DNA of 64,000 nucleotides from a bacterium (GTDB lineage: Bacteria; Armatimonadota; Fimbriimonadia; Fimbriimonadales; Fimbriimonadaceae). Below are positions 29,328 to 35,230 of this stretch, in pieces (within the stretch, counting starts at the first letter, position 1; the number at the start of each line of letters is the position of its first letter). The DNA lies in assembly GCA_027485645.1 (NCBI GenBank), contig JAIXQR010000001.1:248001-312000 (forward strand), in the 5' to 3' direction. The notes beneath the pieces are model-generated. The model was not told the DNA's origin, made no database searches, and worked only from the letters and a program-made list of their open reading frames with translations. The translations under genes were made by a program, and so were the position numbers.

Positions 29328-30869
29328 ATGTGGATTGCTTCTTCTGACCATTGCCGAAAAATTGATCGTCAGACGAGTGAGGAGTACGGAATCTCGTCCA
29401 CCGTGCTCATGGAGCGTGCCGGTCTTGCCGTTTTCGAGGTCGTCCAGCAAACCATGCCCGAGCCGGGCAAGATCACGGTGGTTTGCGGCAAGGGCAACAA
29501 CGGCGGCGATGGCTTTGTGGTCGCGCGATTAGCCCGAGATTTTGGCTATCACGTGGAATGCCTTGTCACCGCCGCCGAGGGTGACCTTCGGCATGAAGCG
29601 CAAGAAGCCATGCGATCTGCGCATGCGCACGGAGTGGTCCCGGTCTTCAGCGACGACGCGCGTTGGGCGAGAAAGCTTGAGATGCTTGGCACGCGCGAGT
29701 TGATCGTTGACGCGATCCTGGGGATCAGTGCGAGTGGCGATTTAAAGGGGGCCGCGAGAGAGGCAATCGAAGCCATCAATCGGTCTGGGGTTCCGGTGAT
29801 TGCGGTGGATGTTCCGAGCGGGATTCATTGCGATTCGGGCGAGGAACTGGGCGACAGTGTTTGGGCGCTTCGAACCGTCACTTTCGGTCAGCCGAAGCCG
29901 TTTCTGTTTCAGGGTACGGGAATCGAACATTCCGGCTATTGGTCGGTCAGCGACATTGGGATTCCGCGCCAGTTGCTGAGCGAACCCACGGAAGCTCGAT
30001 TGCTAGATGGCCCGTACATTGGGCACCTGTTGCCCGAGCGGCTACGAGGCTGCCACAAGGGCGACAACGGCTCTGTGCTGGTTGTGGCCGGGAGCACCCG
30101 TTATCGTGGGGCGGCAATTCTCTCTGCCCGAGCGGCGCTTCGCGCAGGAGCTGGACTTGTTACGGTTGCCGGAGTTCCAGATGTCTGCCGAGCAGTTTCG
30201 GCGGCGCTGCCAGAGGCGATTTTGGTGCCGCTTCCCGAACGAGATGGCGTCGTAGATCCGGCGGCGGCCGAGGTCCTTTTGAACATCCCGAAGATCCATA
30301 GCGCGATCTTTGGACCGGGCTTATCGCATGATGCATCGGTCCTGGAGTTCCTCGATCGTGTTTGGCGGCATTGGACCCTTCCGAGCGTGATTGATGCGGA
30401 CGCATTGAACGCCGTGAGTGCCGGAGTACGTCTGCCAGATACCGAATGTGTATTGACACCCCACTCCGGAGAGATGAGTCGACTCCTGCAATTGAGCATT
30501 GCGGAGATCGAGTCCGATCGTTTTCAGACCGTGCGTCAGGCGGTGGAGCACTTCGGTCACTGCATACTGCTGAAGGGGCCGTACTCTCTGGCGGGAATGC
30601 CGGATCAGCCGCTGATGGTGAACTGCACCGGGAATCCAGGGCTGGCCGTCGGGGGCGCGGGCGACGTTTTGAGCGGAATTATCGGGACGCTTCTAGCGCA
30701 GTGCGTCGGCGCGTTGGATGCAGCCGCTTGCGGAATGTATTGGCACGGCGCAGCGGGCGACCTTTGCGCGGAGGAGATCGGTCCGGTCGGATTCTTGGCC
30801 TCCGAAATTGCGGATCGCCTTCCGCAGGCGCGGCGCAACATAATCAATGCGTGTCTTGGCGCATCGTAA
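29328..30869 (+). CDS. Bifunctional NAD(P)H-hydrate epimerase/ADP-dependent dehydratase
   Basis: The protein repairs hydrated NADH and NADPH. The 513-residue chain has the N-terminal epimerase (SSTVLMERAGLAVFEVVQ, VVCGKGNNGGDGFVVARLA, AVDVPSGIHCDSG) and the C-terminal dehydratase (GDNGSVLVVAGSTRYRGAAI, VLTPHSGEM, GNPGLAVGGAGDVLSG). Fusion of the two is the common bacterial arrangement (YjeF). An AAGGA site precedes the ATG. Its last 19 nt overlap the following FHA gene. Confidence 0.95.
   Translation: MWIASSDHCRKIDRQTSEEYGISSTVLMERAGLAVFEVVQQTMPEPGKITVVCGKGNNGGDGFVVARLARDFGYHVECLVTAAEGDLRHEAQEAMRSAHAHGVVPVFSDDARWARKLEMLGTRELIVDAILGISASGDLKGAAREAIEAINRSGVPVIAVDVPSGIHCDSGEELGDSVWALRTVTFGQPKPFLFQGTGIEHSGYWSVSDIGIPRQLLSEPTEARLLDGPYIGHLLPERLRGCHKGDNGSVLVVAGSTRYRGAAILSARAALRAGAGLVTVAGVPDVCRAVSAALPEAILVPLPERDGVVDPAAAEVLLNIPKIHSAIFGPGLSHDASVLEFLDRVWRHWTLPSVIDADALNAVSAGVRLPDTECVLTPHSGEMSRLLQLSIAEIESDRFQTVRQAVEHFGHCILLKGPYSLAGMPDQPLMVNCTGNPGLAVGGAGDVLSGIIGTLLAQCVGALDAAACGMYWHGAAGDLCAEEIGPVGFLASEIADRLPQARRNIINACLGAS
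30839..30844 (+). promoter_or_regulatory. -10 box for the first FHA gene
   Basis: CATAAT, inside the last codons of the NAD(P)HX repair gene, lies 6 nt before the GTG at 30851. It supports this start and an independent transcript for the FHA/VWA genes. Confidence 0.55.
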
Positions 30870-32101
30870 TTGGATTTGTCTTCATTTGCTTGAGCGCGTT
30901 GTCGTTCGGGCAGTCGGTTGCGCTGACTTTTGAGTCCGGCGGCGATCGGTTAGCCTGGATTGGCCCCGCGACCATTGAAGGGGAACCCAAGAACGCGGTC
31001 AAGTCCTCACGAAATGGGATTGACCTCCCAACTTCCGAGGGTGGGGACACGATTTACGTTCGGGACGAGAAGACGGGCAACCTTGCTAGCAAAAAGTTGG
31101 CCGAGCTAAAGGGTTCTTGGGCGGTTAAGGCAAGCGACTTCTCGCAGATTTTTCAAGTCAAGATTCGCATCCTTTCTGGCGATAAGCCCGTGGCGGCCGG
31201 AGCGGTTGAAATTTCAAACGGAAAGCGGAAGGTCTCCGCGTTGCTTGATCCAAGCCTGAAAGGTGAGGTTTCAACCTACGGTTGGCCAGCGGGTGAGCTG
31301 ACAGCGACGGTGAAGACGGTGGTCGAAGGAAAGCCGGCAGACCCGGTAAAGCAGGTCTTTACGCTTTCGTTGAGCCGAAGTGATGCTGTGCCGACTCTTA
31401 ATATCGCGGTTCCCGGAAAGGTCGCGACGGTGGATGGCTCGTCGGATGAACCAACCGAGAGTGAGCCGGAAGAGGGAACCACCTCGGAAGAGCCGAAAAC
31501 GAGCGGAAAAGACGAGAAAGCCGAGCCTGCGCCGAGTGGACTCCAATTCGGAAACATCCTCGCCTACCTACTTGGCCTCGTGGCGGCCGGCGCGGCGATC
31601 TACTTTGGGCTTCAGTATTACAAGCAGAACACTTCGAGCGTAAACGCACAGCTCACCCAGTTGGGAGTTCAGATTCCGAAAACGGATGACCTCGCGAACG
31701 CGCATGCCAACACGCCGCTGCCGGCCGCACCGGCACCGCAACCCGTTCAAAAAATCCTTCTGACGGATGCAGTTCCCGATCCTGCTCCAGCGGCCCCAAT
31801 CAGCGTTCCCGCAGCAACTACGGGCGTGCTTCGGCTAGTGAGCCCGCAGGGCGACGAGATTCCCCTTGATGGCGAGGTTCTGGTCGGTCGCGAAGCTGGT
31901 TTGGGCTTGAGCCTTACCACCGAATCCACCGTGTCAAGGCAGCATGCCCGGATTAGCTGTAGCGGAACTACGGTAACCGTGACTGATCTGGGTAGCAGCA
32001 ACGGAACCTATGTGAACGGCGCGAAGATCAGCACGGTGGTCGTGTTGAAGCCGGGCGACAACGTTCAGTTCGGTCAGGCAAAGTTCCGATTCGAGGCGTA
32101 A
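30851..32101 (+). CDS. Membrane protein with C-terminal FHA domain
   Basis: The 416-residue protein has an N-terminal signal sequence (VIGFVFICLSALSFGQS), a beta-rich outer region, a Pro/Glu/Ser-rich acidic linker (about 198-233), one membrane helix (LAYLLGLVAAGAAIYFGLQYY, about 235-257), an Ala/Pro linker and a C-terminal FHA domain (about 325-416). The FHA core has VGRE, STVSRQHARI and DLGSSNGTYVNG, all phosphothreonine-binding positions intact. The topology puts the FHA inside the cell. It is the first gene of the FHA-FHA-VWA set, so it could report an outside signal to the phospho-Thr tail of the VWA protein (inference). Confidence 0.85.
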   Translation: MSWRIVIGFVFICLSALSFGQSVALTFESGGDRLAWIGPATIEGEPKNAVKSSRNGIDLPTSEGGDTIYVRDEKTGNLASKKLAELKGSWAVKASDFSQIFQVKIRILSGDKPVAAGAVEISNGKRKVSALLDPSLKGEVSTYGWPAGELTATVKTVVEGKPADPVKQVFTLSLSRSDAVPTLNIAVPGKVATVDGSSDEPTESEPEEGTTSEEPKTSGKDEKAEPAPSGLQFGNILAYLLGLVAAGAAIYFGLQYYKQNTSSVNAQLTQLGVQIPKTDDLANAHANTPLPAAPAPQPVQKILLTDAVPDPAPAAPISVPAATTGVLRLVSPQGDEIPLDGEVLVGREAGLGLSLTTESTVSRQHARISCSGTTVTVTDLGSSNGTYVNGAKISTVVVLKPGDNVQFGQAKFRFEA

Positions 32102-32104
32102 ATC

Positions 32105-33508
32105 ATGGCTCTCACTTTCCGTTTCTTCCTCGCCGGTCTCGCTGGATTATTGGCGTGGGCCATTATCGAACCGACGAATCCAGGCATGACATCGACCGGG
32201 GCGTGGAGCAATTTTGAGCTCCGGCTGGTGATCTCACTTGGCGCGCTGGTTGGCGCGACGATCGGTGGAATGAACGGATTCAACCAGGGAAGTCGAACCC
32301 ACCTTTTGCGCGGTCTAGGGCTTGGAGCCCTGTTTGGAGCGATCGGCGCCTCGTTTGGTTATGGCGTTGGCGGCGGAATTGTAAGGATGATTTTCGGTGG
32401 GGTCACCGGCATGGGGCCGATGACGGTCATTGCTCGCGTGGTCGCCCTCGCGCCACTGGGAACGATGCTCGGAGCCGCGATCGGATTTAGTTCTTTGAAC
32501 GTAAAGCGTGCCGTTCAAGGTGCCATTGGCGGCACCATCGGTGCAGCCCTCGGCGCGGGAGTTTTCGACATCATCGGGACCGTCTTTGGAGTTTTCCAGT
32601 TGTCGCTGAACGGCACGCCATCAGGACAAAGCGGGGAAGTTGGCAGCATCCCTCGCGCCGTTTTTGCCGTCGCCCTCAGTTCACTGATCGGATTGTTCAT
32701 CGGGCTTGTGGACCTTATGTCGCGATCGGCTTGGCTCCGACTGACGGTGGGACGGAACGAATCGAAGGAGTGGTCCTTGGATTTTGCGAGCAACTTCATC
32801 GGCCGGAGTGAAACTGCCCAGATTCCGCTCTTCGGCGATATGAATGTCACACCGACTCATGCGGTCATCCGAAAGCACGGACCGGCATACGTGCTTCAGG
32901 ATGGTGGTTCGCCGATTGGCACTTATGTCAACGGACATCGCATTCAACAAGCCGAATTGCATGCTGGCGATGTGATCCAAGTCGGGCCGTACCAACTCCA
33001 ATTTTTGATGAAGAATCAGGCAGCGCCAGCGCGAGGACCCGAGCCGTACCGCGGCCCCGTTCAGCCAATGCAACCCATGCAACCGATGGCTCCGATGCAG
33101 CAAATGCCCCAAATGCAGCAGATGCCGCAAATGCAGCCGATGGCACCCATGAATCCAACGATGATGACTCCACAGCCGGCAATGAACCCGACGATGGCGT
33201 ATCCGCAGTCGCCGATGCCGTCGGGCTTTGGTCTCATCGCGGTCGATGGGCCGCTGGCGGGAACGCGGTTCCCGGTCATCGCCGCCCTCGAACTTGGGCG
33301 TGGCAGCACGAGCATTCCGATGGCGTACGACCAGCAAGCCTCGAGACGTCACGCTCAAGTCGGGCCGGATGCTACCGGAGTCGTCGTTACCGATTTGGGA
33401 AGTACCAACGGGACTTTCATCAATGGCAACCGAATTCAGCAGGCACAGGCGCGGGTTGGCGATATCATTCGAATTGGCAGCACGTCTTTCCGGGTTGAAC
33501 CCGTCTAA
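32105..33508 (+). CDS. Polytopic membrane protein with two FHA domains
   Basis: The 467-residue protein has several Gly/Ala-rich membrane helices (about 1-205), a first FHA (about 222-300), a Met/Gln/Pro-rich linker (about 315-375) and a second FHA (about 380-467). FHA2 is canonical (LGRGS, ASRRHAQV, DLGSTNGTFING). FHA1 departs: TPTHAVI replaces the SRxH motif and SPIGTYVNG lacks the usual Asn before Gly, so its phosphothreonine binding is doubtful. It begins 3 nt after the first FHA gene. Confidence 0.87.
   Translation: MALTFRFFLAGLAGLLAWAIIEPTNPGMTSTGAWSNFELRLVISLGALVGATIGGMNGFNQGSRTHLLRGLGLGALFGAIGASFGYGVGGGIVRMIFGGVTGMGPMTVIARVVALAPLGTMLGAAIGFSSLNVKRAVQGAIGGTIGAALGAGVFDIIGTVFGVFQLSLNGTPSGQSGEVGSIPRAVFAVALSSLIGLFIGLVDLMSRSAWLRLTVGRNESKEWSLDFASNFIGRSETAQIPLFGDMNVTPTHAVIRKHGPAYVLQDGGSPIGTYVNGHRIQQAELHAGDVIQVGPYQLQFLMKNQAAPARGPEPYRGPVQPMQPMQPMAPMQQMPQMQQMPQMQPMAPMNPTMMTPQPAMNPTMAYPQSPMPSGFGLIAVDGPLAGTRFPVIAALELGRGSTSIPMAYDQQASRRHAQVGPDATGVVVTDLGSTNGTFINGNRIQQAQARVGDIIRIGSTSFRVEPV
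33060..33225 (+). repeat. Met/Gln/Pro-rich coding repeat
   Basis: About 165 bp of imperfect 'CC(A/G)ATGCA(A/G)' units encode a low-complexity linker of PM, QM and PQM units between the two FHA domains. Length variation between strains would be expected. Confidence 0.8.
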
Positions 33509-33528
33509 GTCCGAACAAGAGCAAAACC

Positions 33529-34902
33529 ATGGATAACCGCACCCAGCGCATCGACCCGAACCGAACGCAACTCGGAGCGCCTCCGCAGGCATTCGACCCG
33601 ATGCGCACCCAGGCCATGTCGGCATTTGATCCTCTCAAGACGACCGCCATGACGGCGGCTTTCGAGGGCATTCGAGCCGAGATCATTCCAGGACGAGAAG
33701 CCTCTATGGCGAACGGTCCCGCGCGGGAGCAGTTCATCGTCGAGTTCACTGCCGGTGGTGCTCCGACTTCGGGAGGCATGTCGATCGGAGGACGAACGCC
33801 GCTTAACGTGTGCCTGGTCATCGACCGGTCGGGAAGTATGGAAGGCGCGCCGCTGGAGTACGCCAAGCAAGCTTGTAGCTACGTGGTGGACATGCTCGGA
33901 CCGAACGACATTCTGAGCATCGTCACGTTCGAGGAAACGGTGGATATCCTGATGCCGCCGCAGCGCGTGACTTCCAAGCAGCCGATCAAAGACGGCATTC
34001 AGCGATTGATGCCGGGCAATACGACGAACCTCTATGACGGATTGGCATTGGGTGCCCAGCAGGTTTTGAGCGTCAACGAAGGTGGCCGCTCGACGCGATT
34101 GGTCGTGCTGTCGGACGGTGATCCGACGGCCGGAATCAAGGATTTCTCTGCCCTCGTTGCCCATGCCGGTGAGATCAAGAACCGGGGGATTACCGTGACC
34201 TTCCTCGGGTTTGGGCCGGACTATAACGAAGAGCTTCTCGCCAGCATGGCCAAGCGCGCGGGCGGAAACTACTACTTCATCCCTCGACCTGAAATGCTGC
34301 CGGAAGTGTTTAAGCTTGAGCTGGACAAGATGATGACGGGCGCGGCCCGAAATCTTCAGCTCTCGGTTAAGCCTGCCCGGTGGGTTGGTCTTCGTGCGCC
34401 ACAAACGGCGGCAGAAGGTCAGGAAGTGATCATTCCGCTTGCCGATATTGAGCGTGGGGCATCCATTCAGCAGGTGCTCGACTTCGAGTTCAAGAATCAC
34501 CCGCTCGGTTGGTACCGCGTTGCCGCTGGCAAACTGACTTACGATGATCTTTCCGACGGTGGCGGGATCAAGACGGTTGATCTGGACTTCGTGATCGAGT
34601 TCACGGCAGACTCCGCGCGCTATTCCGCACCGCAGGATCCGCGCGTTGCCGGTGCCGCTCAGGTTGCCTTGGCGAGCCGGGCGGTGGAGAAGACGGTCAT
34701 GGGTCTCAAGACCGGAATGATCACGCAAATGGCCGCGGTTCAAGAATTGCAGAAGACGCAAATGCTGCTCAGTCAGCAAGGCCGGGCCGCCGAAGCCAAG
34801 GAAGTCACGATGGCTCTCCGCGCGCTGCAAACCGGAGATACCGGCCAGGCCGAGAAGACTCTGATGGGCACAATGCTGCACCTCGATCAGGGCAAAAAGT
34901 AG
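33529..34902 (+). CDS. VWA-domain protein with repeated Thr motifs at the N-terminus
   Basis: The 457-residue protein has a VWA domain with a complete metal-dependent adhesion site: VIDRSGSMEG (DxSxS), NTTNLYDGL (Thr) and LSDGDPTAG (Asp), spanning about residues 85-260. C-terminal beta and helical parts follow. The first 50 residues carry four related units, DNRTQRI, DPNRTQLG, DPMRTQAM and DPLKTTAM, each with a Thr that looks like an FHA target. No signal peptide or membrane helix is seen, so it is cytoplasmic. It lies 20 nt after the double-FHA gene. A Ser/Thr kinase must be encoded elsewhere. Confidence 0.88.
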   Translation: MDNRTQRIDPNRTQLGAPPQAFDPMRTQAMSAFDPLKTTAMTAAFEGIRAEIIPGREASMANGPAREQFIVEFTAGGAPTSGGMSIGGRTPLNVCLVIDRSGSMEGAPLEYAKQACSYVVDMLGPNDILSIVTFEETVDILMPPQRVTSKQPIKDGIQRLMPGNTTNLYDGLALGAQQVLSVNEGGRSTRLVVLSDGDPTAGIKDFSALVAHAGEIKNRGITVTFLGFGPDYNEELLASMAKRAGGNYYFIPRPEMLPEVFKLELDKMMTGAARNLQLSVKPARWVGLRAPQTAAEGQEVIIPLADIERGASIQQVLDFEFKNHPLGWYRVAAGKLTYDDLSDGGGIKTVDLDFVIEFTADSARYSAPQDPRVAGAAQVALASRAVEKTVMGLKTGMITQMAAVQELQKTQMLLSQQGRAAEAKEVTMALRALQTGDTGQAEKTLMGTMLHLDQGKK

Positions 34903-34934: not shown

Positions 34935-34962
34935 TTGACAGGGTTCTGATAGATCGTATAAT
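34935..34962 (+). promoter_or_regulatory. Consensus sigma-70 promoter before lipoprotein gene
   Basis: TTGACA (34935-34940) and TATAAT (34957-34962) match consensus exactly, spaced 16 nt. A 7-bp hairpin (AAATCCG/CGGATTT, 34973-34991) falls at the transcript start. It separates the lipoprotein-LacI-pseudopilin group from the VWA operon. Confidence 0.85.
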
Positions 34963-35008: not shown

Positions 35009-35230
35009 ATGAAGAAGCTTGCTGCCCTTTTCCTCCTGATCGCCGCCGTCTTTGTCGTTGGCTGTGAACCTGCCGAGCCGACGAACGAACCAACGCAAGA
35101 TGCGATTGATAAGGCAAACGCGGATCGTGCGAAGGCGATCGATAACGATCCCAGCATGACCCCCGAGGGCAAGCAGAAGATGAAAGAGATGCTCAAGCTA
35201 AACGGAACCGCCCCGACCGAGAACCGATAA
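35009..35230 (+). CDS. Small lipoprotein
   Basis: The 73-residue protein has a lipoprotein signal (LAALFLLIAAVFVVGC) with the VVGC lipobox; the mature part is a short, charged, Pro/Thr-rich peptide (EPAEPTNEPTQDA). The function is unknown. It follows a consensus promoter and precedes the LacI gene by 4 nt. Confidence 0.75.
   Translation: MKKLAALFLLIAAVFVVGCEPAEPTNEPTQDAIDKANADRAKAIDNDPSMTPEGKQKMKEMLKLNGTAPTENR

Follow-up and report, generated by a model that had tools for sequence, protein, structure and literature searches.

FHA domains are specific for phosphothreonine. In mycobacteria, FHA proteins are encoded together with a PknB-type kinase and a PP2C phosphatase in the fhaA-fhaB-pstP-rodA-pbpA-pknA-pknB cluster, for which we know of no VWA protein and no multi-Thr tail. 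Genes for a vWA protein, a PP2C phosphatase and a kinase are also linked in the TerY-P triad. Linkage of kinase, PP2C and vWA genes has been reported for actinobacterial gene sets as well (PMC7159879). In GarA/OdhI and in Bdellovibrio DgcB, an FHA domain reads the phosphorylated N-terminal tail of the same protein (PMC6733907). A precedent that is close in both architecture and mechanism to the locus described here is found in the archaeon Sulfolobus, where the zinc finger and FHA protein ArnA binds Thr-phosphorylated ArnB, with the kinase ArnC as writer and the phosphatase PP2A as eraser (PMC6509490, PMC7472852, PMC12852372). The phosphosites of ArnB, several Thr residues, are situated in its C-terminal helix bundle (PMC6509490, PMC12852372).

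The present study concerns a gene set from an Armatimonadota genome of 3.19 Mb in seven contigs. The window, i.e. the whole stretch of 64,000 nucleotides that was analyzed, corresponds to contig positions C3:248001-312000. A first-pass annotation of this DNA had noticed three adjacent genes, here named A, B and C, coding for a membrane protein with an FHA domain, a polytopic membrane protein with two FHA domains and a cytoplasmic VWA protein. It had proposed that a Ser/Thr kinase phosphorylates the Thr-rich tail of C, which then docks on the membrane FHA domains. The gene set was borne out by the open reading frames, transmembrane (TM) segments and domain calls (Table 1), while the interpretation as a whole was supported in part.

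Results

Table 1. Coordinates of the features discussed in the text, given as window positions or, for genes situated elsewhere, as contig positions
Feature	Position	Strand	Description
nnr	29328..30869	+	ORF directly 5' of A; presumably NAD(P)HX epimerase/dehydratase-like
CATAAT	30839..30844	+	-10-like hexamer within nnr codons, 6 nt 5' of the A start codon
A	30851..32101	+	416 aa; GTG start; signal-like N-terminus, extracytoplasmic beta domain, one TM, cytoplasmic FHA
FHA of A	31880..32074	+	phosphothreonine-site residues GR / SRxH / NG intact
B	32105..33508	+	467 aa; polytopic Gly-rich membrane domain and two cytoplasmic FHA
First FHA of B	32798..32986	+	phosphothreonine site degenerate
Second FHA of B	33293..33478	+	phosphothreonine site intact
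C	33529..34902	+	457 aa; VWA protein built like ArnB
N-terminal tail of C	33529..33666	+	residues 1-46; predicted disordered; T5, T13, T27, T38
VWA domain of C	33805..34311	+	residues 93-261; metal-site residues invariant
Beta-sandwich part of C	34339..34605	+	residues 271-359; AlphaFold2 model
C-terminal helix bundle of C	34639..34887	+	residues 371-453; near-invariant EKT[VIL]MG, EKTLMGT
D	C3:737037-737954	-	zinc ribbon and two FHA; N-terminal tail with C-type motif
PP2C (L009)	C6:147408-147950		own-genome copy
Kinase (L007)	C7:5650-7596	-	Hanks kinase; single TM (residues 430-448) C-terminal to the kinase domain

The VWA protein C has no TM segment and shares its architecture with ArnB. Comparison of its profile with solved structures identified ArnB of Sulfolobus as best match (8s05_A, E 4e-17, positions 96-432), and this match spans the VWA domain, the sandwich and the bundle. 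The AlphaFold2 model of C likewise matched 8s05_A (Foldseek E 1.3e-24; Z 30.4 with 370 aligned residues, 4.0 A). As fold match ArnB stood level with the bacterial VWA protein 4fx5 of Catenulispora and above ArnE (5a8j), and Sec23/24 appeared below ArnB in the Foldseek list. When the C-terminal part of C was searched alone, ArnB was the sole profile match with a weak E value of 0.06, and up to E values of 10 the ArnB_C family was absent when C was scanned against Pfam. Since the ArnB architecture is widespread, including 4fx5 and Sec23/24, the fold alone is no proof of an ArnB-like function of C. The residues D99, S101, S103, T166 and D196 of the VWA metal site (MIDAS) are invariant in 11 orthologues. 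Among the orthologues of C, the bundle motifs are kept almost without change and represent, by analogy, a second candidate phosphosite in the part of the protein that is phosphorylated in ArnB.

The four Thr units that the first-pass annotation had read at the N-terminus of C are found there exactly as described, i.e. Asp-x-[x]-Arg/Lys-Thr units DNRTQRI (T5), DPNRTQLG (T13), DPMRTQAM (T27) and DPLKTTAM (T38) with I, G, M and M at position +3. The pLDDT of residues 1-44 is about 30 in the AlphaFold2 model, which predicts disorder of the tail. C-like proteins were detected in 206 of the 291 Armatimonadota genomes sampled (E <= 1e-20), the weakest of which may be paralogues. For the tail statistics, 59 aligned C proteins representing 50 distinct tails were compared to composition-preserving shuffles, with kinship ignored. 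At least two [RK]T sites were present in 48 of the 50 distinct tails. The dipeptide [RK]T was counted 146 times versus 23.3 ± 4.4 in the shuffled tails and the extended form DP.[RK]T 103 times versus 0.2, whereas [RK]S was never found versus 5.9 in the shuffles. Around these 146 Thr residues, D prevails at position -4 (86%), P at -3 (71%), Q at +1 (58%) and M at +3 (45%). An enrichment of TQ is also seen in the 21 tails from distant families (56 versus 9.4 ± 2.7 shuffled, kinship ignored), also in those with an eroded DP part. Published mycobacterial phosphothreonine sites in PknB, PknD and PknG include Q at +1, and by this analogy a T-Q context is plausible for a Hanks kinase. The units vary in number and position (about 2-5 per tail), and DP has been lost in some lineages. 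Because of this turnover, the alignments point to the repeated motif, and not to one particular residue, as the conserved feature of the tail. The persistence of Thr in orthologues, on which the first-pass proposal depended, was found; the units persist throughout the phylum, and Ser never occurs in the [RK]T context of C. In the own genome, 15 selected matches to a DNA pattern requiring DP and a restricted third codon were inspected, and among these only C and D displayed the unit in an N-terminal tail.

The potential readers of such a tail include the FHA domains of A and B. In A, the extracytoplasmic beta domain covers approximately residues 20-190 and the TM segment residues 236-254, with the FHA domain at the C-terminus; FHA matches were obtained in the fold search. 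For the beta domain, this search gave only a weak match to a pilin (4oq1), which was not relied on. B has about six hydrophobic segments besides its two FHA domains. The GR, SxxH and NG residues are intact in every aligned orthologue for four FHA domains, namely that of A, the second one of B and both of D. In the first FHA domain of B, the Asn of NG is gone from all aligned orthologues and the Ser from most, hence this domain probably plays a structural role; the protein studied here has VTPTH in place of SRxH and SPIGT in place of SxNGT. The two FHA domains annotated in the first pass for B are both present, but with the first one degenerate the full phosphothreonine site is kept in two of the three membrane FHA domains. 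The linker between the FHA domains of B is rich in PT[MVQ] (33 versus 5.4 ± 2.2 shuffled), which might be a weaker sign of additional sites. In distant lineages (L053, L057-L070), this linker contains a Cys-rich segment (CPFCG...C.C) that may be a zinc ribbon.

In distant families, the genes are arranged in the order nnr-A-B-C-D-PP2C-kinase. The clusters were sampled via C, which is a constant member by search design; among the 30 loci with flanks, A-B-C are contiguous in 22, C and D adjacent in 15, PP2C follows directly after D in 13 and the kinase further on in 11. D, PP2C and the kinase are present in the genome studied here but dispersed away from A-B-C. The Ser/Thr kinase earlier assumed to be encoded elsewhere has a candidate in the C7 kinase, which nevertheless counts as part of the cluster, since in 11 sampled distant genomes its orthologues and PP2C are directly downstream. 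D, which was absent from the earlier interpretation, is a further candidate receiver for phosphorylated tails. Its zinc ribbon (CPVC-x10-CVEC) precedes the two FHA domains, with Pfam matches to zinc ribbons under the cut-off for the own-genome protein. Among solved structures, the FHA domain of mycobacterial FhaA matched D best, and that of ArnA was matched with a lower score. The N-terminal tails of 16 D proteins contain TQ 30 times (6.9 ± 2.3 shuffled, kinship ignored).

The VAIK lysine, HRD and DFG are present in all 12 aligned kinases, while a conserved IARSNDIVYE replaces the Gly-rich loop in the C7 kinase and the kinases of L057-L070. Two PF00069 matches were obtained in the genome, and HRD plus DFG only in the C7 kinase. 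The other match, a PknB/PASTA-kinase-like protein encoded 3' of an aroB-like ORF (L008, G000:C3:609631-610371), has HGDVSSSH and no DFG; judged by these residues, it is likely a pseudokinase. In NCBIfam, A, B and D are similar to FhaB/OdhI models, PP2C to Stp1 and the kinase to PknB, with the FhaB scores under the curated cut-off. The PP2C N-termini of L009 and distant loci share a recurring short E[IT]TAK-like motif, and the PP2C proteins of L053 and L070 begin with a Cys-rich, zinc-ribbon-like segment.

Within the order, C was found in 105, D in 103 and the kinase in 102 of 113 genomes. All three are jointly absent from G132 and G133, two congeneric genomes of the same family with a size of 1.5 Mb and a completeness of 97%. 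This joint loss is in keeping with a common function, but as both genomes are reduced and from a single genus it may also reflect general genome reduction. Beyond the phylum, one scan of genome contigs, which gave Armatimonadota-type loci only, and plasmids were covered. The nearest named relatives are Armatimonadota metagenome assemblies, and several of these bear the label Fimbriimonas or Fimbriimonadaceae. Four plasmid-encoded VWA relatives of C from Cyanobacteria and Deinococcus serve as contrast only and were rejected as the same system. They have no TQ-repeat tail and no annotated FHA, kinase or PP2C gene within 7 kb flanks; three of the four are beside a MerR regulator (L091, L093, L094).

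The 3' end of nnr and the 5' end of A share 19 nt, and an nnr homologue is situated directly 5' of A, overlapping or close, in all 23 sampled loci holding A. The first-pass annotation had taken the -10 box before A as mark of a separate transcript. Similar hexamers (TAGAAT/TAAAAT-like) recur 6-9 nt before the A start in several close relatives, again inside nnr codons, and the position resembles a leaderless promoter arrangement. However, the box lies within the last nnr codons and is therefore, on its own, no sign of a separate transcript, and the CATAAT at 30839 was not called by a simple promoter scan. A separate A-B-C transcript is possible, and so is read-through from nnr. Just 3' of C, a perfect TTGACA-16-TATAAT (34935-34962) precedes a lipoprotein-like ORF starting at 35009.

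Discussion

Taken as a whole, the data are probably best explained by a bacterial phospho-switch of ArnAB type that combines multi-Thr tails with FHA adaptors in the membrane and has a kinase and a phosphatase of its own. A, B and C would then be what this locus retains of a Hanks-kinase module (nnr-A-B-C-D-PP2C-kinase) that extends through the phylum. In this module, the C7-encoded membrane kinase would phosphorylate the repeated Thr residues in the disordered N-terminal tails of both C and D, and the phosphorylated tails would be bound by the FHA domains of D and A and by the second one of B. C might thereby assemble with D and, by docking of its tail, with A and B at the membrane, whereas PP2C would reverse the phosphorylation. 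The C-D pair may work like the archaeal ArnB-ArnA pair, with the Thr sites multiplied on flexible tails. The explanation is built on gene content and order, their conservation, the tail motif, the FHA site residues and the predicted fold of C.

C and D are architectural counterparts of ArnB and ArnA; orthology is not claimed. As in the Sulfolobus pair (8s05, 5a8i), a protein composed of VWA domain, split beta-sandwich and C-terminal helix bundle is joined by a zinc-ribbon plus FHA protein, and the zinc ribbon of ArnA (C21/C24/C35/C38) displays the same CxxC-x10-CxxC spacing as that of D. The proposed sequence of events is also shared, in which a kinase would modify several Thr of the VWA protein, an FHA domain would bind and a phosphatase would reverse the modification. 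Differences exist in the position of the Thr sites, which form repeated units in the N-terminal tails of both C and D but belong to the C-terminal bundle in ArnB. Moreover, D has two FHA domains, the phosphatase is PP2C and not PP2A, and the cluster also codes for the dedicated membrane FHA proteins A and B and for a membrane kinase. With a Thr tail at the N-terminus for an FHA domain to read, the proposed switch is reminiscent of GarA/OdhI and DgcB; however, the repeated units are carried by the VWA protein as well as by D and would mainly be read in trans. TerY-P or vWA-MoxR conflict systems were rejected as identity, since FHA is sporadic there and no tail is described. From the TerY-P and actinobacterial kinase-PP2C-vWA sets, the module differs by the repeated Thr tail and the membrane FHA adaptors, neither of which was found described for those sets.

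Other explanations have to be considered. It is unlikely that the cluster represents a variant of the actinobacterial fhaA-fhaB-pstP-...-pknB cell-envelope cluster, with control of cell-wall growth as main job and C as an added effector. The PknB-type kinase, PP2C and FHA genes are indeed united in one cluster in both cases, the NCBIfam similarities of A, B and D to FhaB/OdhI, of PP2C to Stp1 and of the kinase to PknB point in this direction, and so does FhaA as best solved relative of D. Yet the FhaB scores stay below the curated threshold, and neither rodA nor pbp was recognised by eye among the neighbouring ORF starts of L057, L060, L063 and L064. A further difference from the mycobacterial cluster is that the C-terminal part of the kinase is not PASTA-like in the Pfam scan.

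The tail itself might have another function. It appears quite unlikely that the tail serves the kinase or PP2C only, as a substrate with several sites or for docking, while other phosphoproteins are read by the FHA domains in A, B and D. R/K-T-Q could be a kinase-recognition feature, in agreement with the T-Q among the mycobacterial sites, but the gene with the tail has neighbours coding for three proteins with intact FHA sites, and an FHA reader would agree with the lack of Ser in the [RK]T context because of the phosphothreonine specificity of these domains. The same lack of Ser also speaks against a tail that works without phosphorylation as repeated linear motif, for instance in adhesion or as turnover signal. 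Short repeats that vary in copy number and abound in Pro, Ala, Gly and Met would be in line with such a role, but given the Ser share that Thr-consensus columns show elsewhere in C, the probability of finding no Ser at 146 [RK]T sites is about 2e-6, phylogeny ignored, and the linkage to kinase, phosphatase and FHA genes adds to the argument. We regard an unphosphorylated motif as very improbable.

The earlier statement that this is not a named system holds in so far as no description of an FHA-VWA switch with its own writer and eraser was found in the open-access papers searched, but has to be qualified by the archaeal precedent. Only tentatively, and with slightly less than even confidence, we suggest an undescribed phylum-wide system, in which a VWA protein and a zinc-ribbon protein with two FHA domains both carry multi-Thr tails, and these tails would mediate phosphorylation-dependent multivalent assembly at two membrane FHA proteins, around a core shared with archaeal ArnAB. 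If the phospho-switch is confirmed, the ArnAB-type FHA-VWA switch of Sulfolobus motility would have a bacterial counterpart, and a complete set of writer (kinase), eraser (PP2C) and reader (FHA) would be at hand with sites readable from sequence. Direct tests of signalling in this poorly studied phylum would then become possible, since the kinase, the FHA domains and the tail peptides are all small, defined entities.
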